Assembly: GCF_021134715.1 (NCBI RefSeq)
Contig: NC_060026.1
Span: 11,523,001-11,587,000 of the forward strand
Direction: 5' to 3'
Source: Daphnia pulex
Lineage: Eukaryota > Arthropoda > Branchiopoda > Diplostraca > Daphniidae
DNA: 64,000 nt
The notes beneath the pieces were generated by a model. That model was not told the origin of the DNA and ran no database searches. It saw nothing but the letters and a program-made list of their open reading frames with translations. A program made the position numbers and the translations under genes. Shown in pieces: positions 6,914 through 7,619 of the stretch. Numbering within the stretch: position 1 is the stretch's first letter; each line of letters begins with the position of its first letter.

Positions 6914-7006
6914 AAGTGCTTTTGGTATAAAAAGAAACGGCAAATAAAGCGGCAACTCAAGCATTTCTTGTAAATAGGACAGGAGATTTTGCTTTTATAA
7001 TTGTGG
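6914..7006 (+). pseudogene. Bacterial-type NuoL (complex I subunit L) fragment
   Basis: Two frames offset by one base read ELKCFWYKK and then [20 protein letters not shown] followed by AFII. In bacterial NuoL this stretch is a conserved block of the kind FWxKKESANKAAxKAFxVNRxGDF. NuoL is the proton-pumping antiporter-like subunit of bacterial complex I. The piece is only about 30 codons, contains one frameshift, and abuts a piece of an unrelated gene. A mitochondrial ND5 origin is possible but less likely, because the neighbouring pieces are from genes that mitochondria do not carry. Confidence 0.6.
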
Positions 7007-7080
7007 GCTATATAAGTTCATGAATAGGTCAAAGCCGATACTTACTGATTCGGGTGGTTATCAAGTCATACTCGACGTAT
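7007..7080 (+). pseudogene. Bacterial-type tRNA-guanine transglycosylase (Tgt) fragment
   Basis: One frame reads LYKFMNRSKPILTDSGGYQV and ends in a stop at 7078-7080. The block PILTDSGG(F/Y)QV carries the catalytic Asp of the TGT family, the enzymes that put queuine or preQ1 into tRNA anticodons. The preceding L(H/Y)KFMNW(S/N) is the bacterial form. Only about 23 codons remain. It joins the NuoL-like piece directly in a different frame, as expected for scrambled inserted fragments. Confidence 0.6.
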
Positions 7081-7280
7081 GACGTCATGACGTAACATCG
7101 AAATTACGTAAAATTACAGAAGTCTTGTTGCTTTTTTCAGTTAATTTCGAACCATTATTTATAGTATTTAAATTTATATAAATAACATATAAGGTTAATA
7201 ACCACCCTAAACAAGATAAGATTTTTGATAGATTAATTGAACGTTTATAGGATGAAATTACGGCTCTATTTCTCTTATCT

Positions 7281-7619
7281 ATGAAGGGAATTTTGACTAA
7301 AATTTTCGACCGCACACTTGGAGAAACTTCTGATGTAGTGACTAAAGAAATATCTAGTTTTCTTGTTAAGAGTGGTAATCATATATCACTGAGACCCGAA
7401 TTTACACAGGCTCAACAAGTAAGTGGTATAGGACTAGAAAAAGCTAGGCATTTTGCTTTACTAAAGGCAAAACTTATTATAAATGGTTTAGAAGGCAAAG
7501 AAATAGTAGAAAAAGGACAACTTCCAGGTAAGTCGTTGACGATGAGACGGATTGCTTTGGGCATAGCCATCGTAAGGTGCCATTGCCGAAGTGACCATTC
7601 TATACCCTCCTTCAACTAG
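7281..7619 (+). pseudogene. Bacterial-type HisRS fragment joined to unknown sequence
   Basis: An open frame of 112 codons. Residues 8-43 read [15 protein letters not shown], then [12 protein letters not shown], which match the bacterial histidyl-tRNA synthetase block (RTLGxxSDVVxKEMYxF and LRPExT). Animal HARS has a different sequence here (the SLRYDLTVPF form), so this is not a host copy. After LRPEFT the similarity ends, and the remaining roughly 70 residues (from about 7416; [16 protein letters not shown]) were not recognised; they may be another bacterial piece. An intact start and flanking genes are lacking, so I treat it as an inserted remnant. Confidence 0.55.

Follow-up and report, generated by a model that had tools for sequence, protein, structure and literature searches.

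The closest described systems to the locus reported here are the Helentrons, with DINE-1 and HINE, and Helitron2. According to the excerpted parts of PMC4067079 and PMC5148889, these elements have an inverted repeat of 12-15 bp that is terminal at the 5' end and subterminal at the 3' end, with a further inverted repeat adjoining its 5' copy; a microsatellite and a palindrome near the 3' end are also present. They insert with no fixed target duplication and carry captured host gene fragments. PMC5148889 also reports circular intermediates for Helitron2-type elements of Fusarium. The same parts give a 3' spacing of approximately 38-60 bp in mite HINEs and approximately 20-40 bp in Fusarium elements. 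Helitron families are listed for Daphnia pulex, and tandem arrays of rolling-circle elements are described, in the excerpts of PMC2884549. We analysed a stretch of 64,000 nucleotides of D. pulex (NCBI RefSeq assembly GCF_021134715.1, contig NC_060026.1, positions 11,523,001 to 11,587,000), hereafter the window, in which a preliminary description had pointed out a mosaic of bacterial gene pieces. We consider it highly probable that this block is the bacterial cargo of a non-autonomous transposon of rolling-circle type (Helentron/Helitron2-like), which has been copied to at least 18 sites. The element has inverted repeats of 13 bp in this arrangement, the adjoining inverted repeat, a microsatellite and captured host gene fragments, and its 3' palindrome and flanks are compatible with the remaining traits.

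The preliminary description had placed pieces of NuoL, Tgt and HisRS within about 700 bp, the first two abutting in different frames, and it was correct in both respects. The six-frame translation of 6851-7660 contains the described motifs. In a scan of five translated stretches, NCBIfam identified all three fragments above chance at that place (Table 1), and the PDB sequence matches agree, being to NADH dehydrogenase subunit L, tRNA-guanine transglycosylases and histidyl-tRNA synthetases; all eight matches to the last we take to be bacterial enzymes. Pfam was weaker on the window copy, with Tgt alone matched (E 1.5e-4, below the curated cut-off) and no match for the nuoL or hisS fragments, and a PHROGs search gave no useful match. 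The alignment columns reveal a one-base deletion after 6928 that shifts the nuoL frame in the window copy. Beyond the earlier observations, we found a second tgt piece, a fourth gene fragment and the multi-copy mobile element that contains them all. The tgt fragment resumes beyond approximately 20 extra bp as SKLRKITE, where a bacterial homologue reads GGYQVMSLAKLRKITEEGV; the insert (7071-7097) is short, partly palindromic and contains ACGTCATGACGT, and is present in the aligned copies. The fourth fragment resembles short-chain dehydrogenases (SDR) of the 3-hydroxybutyrate dehydrogenase kind and was matched at E <=0.01 in four of 385 alphaproteobacterial genomes. In two of these four the protein was examined, and NCBIfam assigned both as 3-hydroxybutyrate dehydrogenases; none of 20000 shuffles of the fragment attained its alignment score to either of these two proteins, both preselected as matches. 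Searches with the SDR piece against plasmid and phage records returned nothing significant (best E 3 and 8). Overall, the bacterial block covers approximately 600 bp, its pieces have a GC content of 33-37%, and all four genes lie on one strand, antisense to the element. The hisS and SDR fragments together form a reading frame of 121-148 codons that, in 15 of the 18 copies, continues into host-derived sequence.

Table 1. Features of the element and of its cargo, with positions and strands as in the window.
Feature	Position	Strand	Evidence or remark
Whole element, non-autonomous, Helentron/Helitron2-like	6082..9585	-	Boundaries from alignment of copies
Subterminal 3' inverted repeat	6082..6093	-	12 of 13 bp of the complement of the 5' repeat in the window copy
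Internal duplication of 8549-8631 in inverted orientation	6278..6367	+	
Captured host RRP42 (exosome subunit) fragment with putative intron	6463..6800	+	PDB sequence match 6d6q, E 4.7e-9 for 6463-6603
nuoL fragment	6917..7002	+	NCBIfam NuoL, E 9.8e-5, match 6931-7002
tgt fragment, two pieces	7002..7121 (7002-7070 + 7098-7121)	+	NCBIfam Tgt, E 1.2e-5 over 7002-7070; second piece from its resemblance to bacterial homologues
hisS fragment	7296..7409	+	NCBIfam HisS, E 5.7e-6 over 7296-7409
SDR fragment, 3-hydroxybutyrate-dehydrogenase-like	7419..7505	+	In frame with the hisS fragment; weakest of the four; NCBIfam E 0.0056, PDB 3-hydroxybutyrate dehydrogenase E 0.25
Captured host gene fragment, cyclin-domain gene	7515..8551	-	91% identical to L126
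5' part, common to sister elements without the bacterial block	8549..9559	-	
Microsatellite-like stretch by the 5' terminus	9500..9550	-	G-rich (C-rich in element orientation); from sequence
5' terminus	9560..9585	-	13-bp inverted repeat TTTCCCGATAGGG, overlapping inverted repeat CCGATA..TATCGG

Elsewhere in the window, a 520-aa open frame (60106-61668) has three stretches that match cystatin/aspartic-proteinase-inhibitor families (SQAPI E 4.1e-31), and a 564-aa open frame (24394-26088) has a histone H1-like (HC2) match below the curated cut-off and overlies 15-bp and 102-bp tandem repeats and a strong AT skew. A tRNA gene (Rfam, 62 bits) lies at 36749-36821.

As ND5 and the eukaryotic TGT catalytic subunits have the same motifs, a derivation of the fragments from the nuclear or mitochondrial homologues of the host (ND5, QTRT1, HARS) was weighed. 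We regard it as highly improbable, because the Tgt piece scores 26.6 bits against bacterial proteins versus 14.7 against eukaryotic ones, and the NuoL piece 30.7 bits against 8qby versus at most 23.1 against mitochondrial ND5; in addition, a search of the D. pulex genome at the DNA level with the block as query shows no host counterpart of it. On these scores a host or mitochondrial origin was rejected, and the reading of the fragments as bacterial DNA in a host chromosome is supported.

A 1001-base query over the block gave 21 matches in the D. pulex assembly itself (133.19 Mb, 13 contigs). The same bacterial mosaic is present in 18 copies distributed over nine contigs (C1, C3, C4, C5 and C7-C11); in one of these copies (L017) extra DNA interrupts it. 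Of the block-bearing copies 16 are complete; lengths range from 3500 to 3540 bp in 14, and extra DNA brings the other two to 4268 and 4346 bp. The flanks of the complete copies differ from one to the next. In the genome the 24-base 5' end was found at 27 places, each an exact match although two mismatches were allowed, while the reversed control gave none. Tallied by position, 19 of these ends are in block-bearing copies (one copy has the end doubled) and eight in others. Two copies follow each other in tandem at a distance of 47 bp; both tandem copies and a doubled 5' terminus are traits of rolling-circle elements. Three element ends were also observed within approximately 10 kb at C3:11300107-11310346, two of them from block-free elements by position. 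A contamination, or a chimeric assembly that joined bacterial reads to host DNA, is so unlikely as to be almost negligible, because the block has 18 copies on nine contigs, with different flanks in the complete ones, and because pairs of copies diverge by up to 3.8% in the block. Bacterial matches in the D. pulex genome can stem from a repeat family, beyond contamination or a single transfer.

The element is approximately 3.5 kb long and runs on the minus strand, from a 5' end at 9585 to a 3' end at 6082. Read on this strand it starts with TTTCCCGATAGGGATTTATCGGCAAA, and all complete copies but the window's (15 of 16) end with CCCTATCGGGAAACTCGCGCGCGAAGCAAGGGATCGGC followed by AT. The 13-bp inverted repeats are exact complements, and the 3' repeat is placed approximately 26 bp inside the end in the same proportion of complete block-bearing copies and in the sister element L125. 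In the other 15 complete copies these approximately 26 bp after the 3' repeat include a 10-bp palindrome, TCGCGCGCGA, and the window copy is without them. When the termini were folded against shuffled sequences, neither the 5' terminus (z -1.35) nor the 3' terminus (z +1.48) was clearly more stable. In L125 and the 16 complete block-bearing copies, 17 elements in all, the flanks contain no target duplication of fixed length: with 3-nt offsets allowed, the flank matches are of 5 bp or less in 15 of them, and the longer ones are of 7 bp in the window copy and 6 bp in L117. A T is conserved at each element boundary, which is compatible with insertion at TT and gives a loosely T-bounded preference.

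Two observations on the flanks run counter to a rolling-circle reading, and neither is standard for it. The window copy is flanked on both sides by the 7-bp sequence ATTGCAT (6076-6082 and 9586-9592), and a 3' remnant of the element, 832 bp long, at another locus (L019, 2257-3204) is accompanied by a 58-bp duplication of the flanking host DNA. The ATTGCAT flanks with the missing 3' end, the L019 duplication and the palindrome in the tgt insert hint that some copies may have been inserted by end joining. The ends, TTTCCC...ATCGGC, are not those of a canonical Helitron (Helitron1), which has 5' TC, 3' CTRR and A/T insertion. As a whole, the anatomy fits a non-autonomous Helentron/Helitron2-like element. 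The genome contains 52 Helitron_like_N matches, and no match listed lies next to any of the 27 exact 5' ends. Two related loci (L139 and L140) are partial relatives in which no Rep/helicase frame was recognised by eye. The element differs from described Helentrons and Helitron2 in its four bacterial fragments, in its loosely T-bounded insertion and in that the search for an autonomous partner with matching ends, covering the 27 exact ends and these two loci, was unsuccessful. A partner whose ends have diverged further may exist; we accordingly name the element 'Helentron/Helitron2-like' and do not treat it as an established member.

The cargo also includes fragments of host genes. The RRP42 fragment reads as an exon at 6463-6600, a putative intron at 6601-6662 and a second exon from 6663. 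The segment at 7515-8551 has only one relative outside the element among the matches listed (L126), and this locus encodes a Cyclin_N domain (E 2.1e-6). The sister element L125 (3.2 kb), with the same ends, includes an eIF3d fragment (E 2.9e-27) and is devoid of both the bacterial and the cyclin parts. Its RRP42 part is 91% identical to window positions 6275-6655, with no Pfam match for the corresponding frame. At 3575-3970 L125 also contains another frame, of 132 aa, that looks coding, with an unconvincing best Pfam match (E 0.092). In at least six loci, among which L125 was the one examined, the bacterial block is absent and the 5' part immediately abuts the inverted RRP42 part. The host pieces of the family thus occur in more than one arrangement, and the bacterial block is one more stretch that the family has captured.

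The bacterial and cyclin cargo is flanked by inverted repeats of 65 and 24 nt, located within 6278-6367 and 8549-8631, and these could be taken for the ends of a nested cut-and-paste transposon carrying both. We find this very improbable, since in L125 the sequence of 8549-8631 is internal and runs into RRP42, which gives the left repeat the look of an inverted duplication, and since no lone 6278-8631 unit is present among the matches listed.

Across the 18 loci, the bacterial block departs from the consensus of its copies by 0.3-1.8%, and the other copies tested are nearer to the consensus and match the bacterial families better than the window copy. For instance, nuoL in L009 reaches an NCBIfam E value of 6.3e-9 and retains in frame a 26-residue stretch that the window copy has lost through its one-base deletion, and L120 exceeds the window copy for both Tgt (E 4.5e-7) and HisS (E 3.3e-8). 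This pattern fits a single capture that would have been followed by amplification and decay. The window copy and L117 have identical bacterial blocks and 5' parts that differ by 7.2%, a contrast that suggests exchange of parts between copies. In the hisS-SDR frame, 16 of the 18 copies (leaving out the disrupted L013_2 and the interrupted L017) have two synonymous versus 18 nonsynonymous distinct variants. Approximately four of 20 would be expected to be synonymous (a share of 0.22), so purifying selection is absent on this frame. A coding function of the frame, considered as a candidate, was rejected on these variants.

Identification of the donor was attempted at two scales. A GTDB-wide hisS scan covered the genomes of 84,980 prokaryote species and found 223 related loci, of which the best 80 were kept; its seeds were exact 8-residue patterns from the somewhat decayed window copy, so closer relatives may be missed. 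Apart from one Stygiobacter MAG, these best 80 of 223 loci carry alphaproteobacterial titles or unassigned ones (Proteobacteria bacterium, Bacterium HR39); many are of Rhodospirillaceae/-ales, Magnetospirillum or Acetobacteraceae, and the amino acid identity to alphaproteobacterial hisS is up to 66%. Among 385 sampled alphaproteobacterial genomes, hisS was matched in 228 (E <=0.001), tgt in 312 and nuoL in 301 (both E <=0.01). The top-scoring genome differs from fragment to fragment, with identities of 60% for hisS (G214), 86% for tgt (G107), 71% for nuoL (G035) and 50% for SDR (G268). These results support an alphaproteobacterial donor, as had been proposed.

The further expectation that Rickettsiales would provide the best match for every piece found no support in these comparisons. 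None of the best 80 of 223 hisS loci is titled Rickettsiales, and the genomes with a Tlc ATP/ADP translocase (45 of the 385) are the top match for no fragment. Tlc serves as a marker for intracellular lineages such as the Rickettsiaceae and Holosporales. The best Tlc-bearing genomes come well down for hisS (G217) and tgt (G320), eleventh for nuoL (G243) and third of four for SDR (G114). Because the fragments are short and conserved, and because Anaplasmataceae, to our knowledge, do not have Tlc, Rickettsiales may still be the donor order. Holosporaceae-related sequences are reported from the microbiota of Daphnia cf. pulex in the excerpts of PMC11909080, which makes this group also a candidate donor.

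With respect to the origin of the composite, the order of events that we favour begins with an ancestral element that had the same ends and host gene fragments. This element would have gained, in a single capture, approximately 600 bp made of four alphaproteobacterial fragments, and also a piece of a host cyclin-domain gene, and the composite would then have been copied to at least 18 chromosomal sites by rolling-circle transposition, probably with a Rep/helicase supplied in trans. The capture may have occurred by template switching or by filler-DNA repair from bacterial DNA, which could equally well have been taken up directly or have come from an older nuclear insertion that is now lost. Alternatively, the nucleus could have received endosymbiont DNA through end joining, in short pieces scrambled beforehand as those of organelle DNA are, and the transposon could have taken up the finished mosaic later. 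Four unrelated genes in pieces of approximately 70-120 bp on one strand would suit this alternative, as would a block that is the same across copies and hence was formed once. Against this, the search of the D. pulex genome with the block returned only element copies, a truncated element and, for the cyclin part alone, the host gene L126, in a comparison that diverged or very short insertions could escape. Several short host fragments are likewise found in the family, so that a cargo of multiple fragments is its habit. We judge a mosaic made before the transposon acquired it to be a serious possibility, if one somewhat short of even. The likeness to the entry of organelle DNA into nuclei, drawn in the preliminary description, would hold at most for such a first step; it does not extend to a block that sits within a transposon-like element, in 18 copies and beside host fragments.

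Insertions of endosymbiont DNA in nuclear genomes, of the Wolbachia or NUMT-like type, also consist of fragmentary, non-functional bacterial DNA in animal chromosomes, whereas here such DNA is multi-copy and contained within an element with fixed ends. In searches of open-access full text, bacterial domains came up in fungal Helitrons, and we recognised no report in which an animal Helentron carries pieces of bacterial genes. Bacterial sequence within the boundaries of rolling-circle transposons is described for Helitrons of Pleurotus ostreatus in the excerpts of PMC4289320. In contrast to those fungal elements, in which the bacterial sequences are predicted protein domains, the bacterial cargo here is composed of truncated, decaying fragments of housekeeping genes mixed with host exons, and the host is an animal.

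The route by which short bacterial sequences reach a multi-copy, exon-fused state has so far been mostly inferred from finished genes. In the present case the vehicle, the cargo, at least 18 copies and the block-free sister elements are all visible, which makes the order of events testable across Daphnia populations and species, and the element suggests one possible way in which bacterial DNA is shuffled and spread inside animal chromosomes. More generally, and only tentatively, we propose that animal rolling-circle-type transposons capture resident bacterial DNA, join it to host exons and amplify it, as a standing route by which endosymbiont DNA ends up in chimeric bacterial-animal genes. The arthropod HGT-chimeras described in the excerpts of PMC13389597, the two youngest clusters of which are placed there in Daphnia pulex and D. 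pulicaria, likewise fuse bacterial and animal sequence. They are annotated genes, whereas the frame described here has no sign of purifying selection; if the proposal is true, the in-frame hisS-SDR fusion would be a raw intermediate of the Daphnia HGT-chimera kind.
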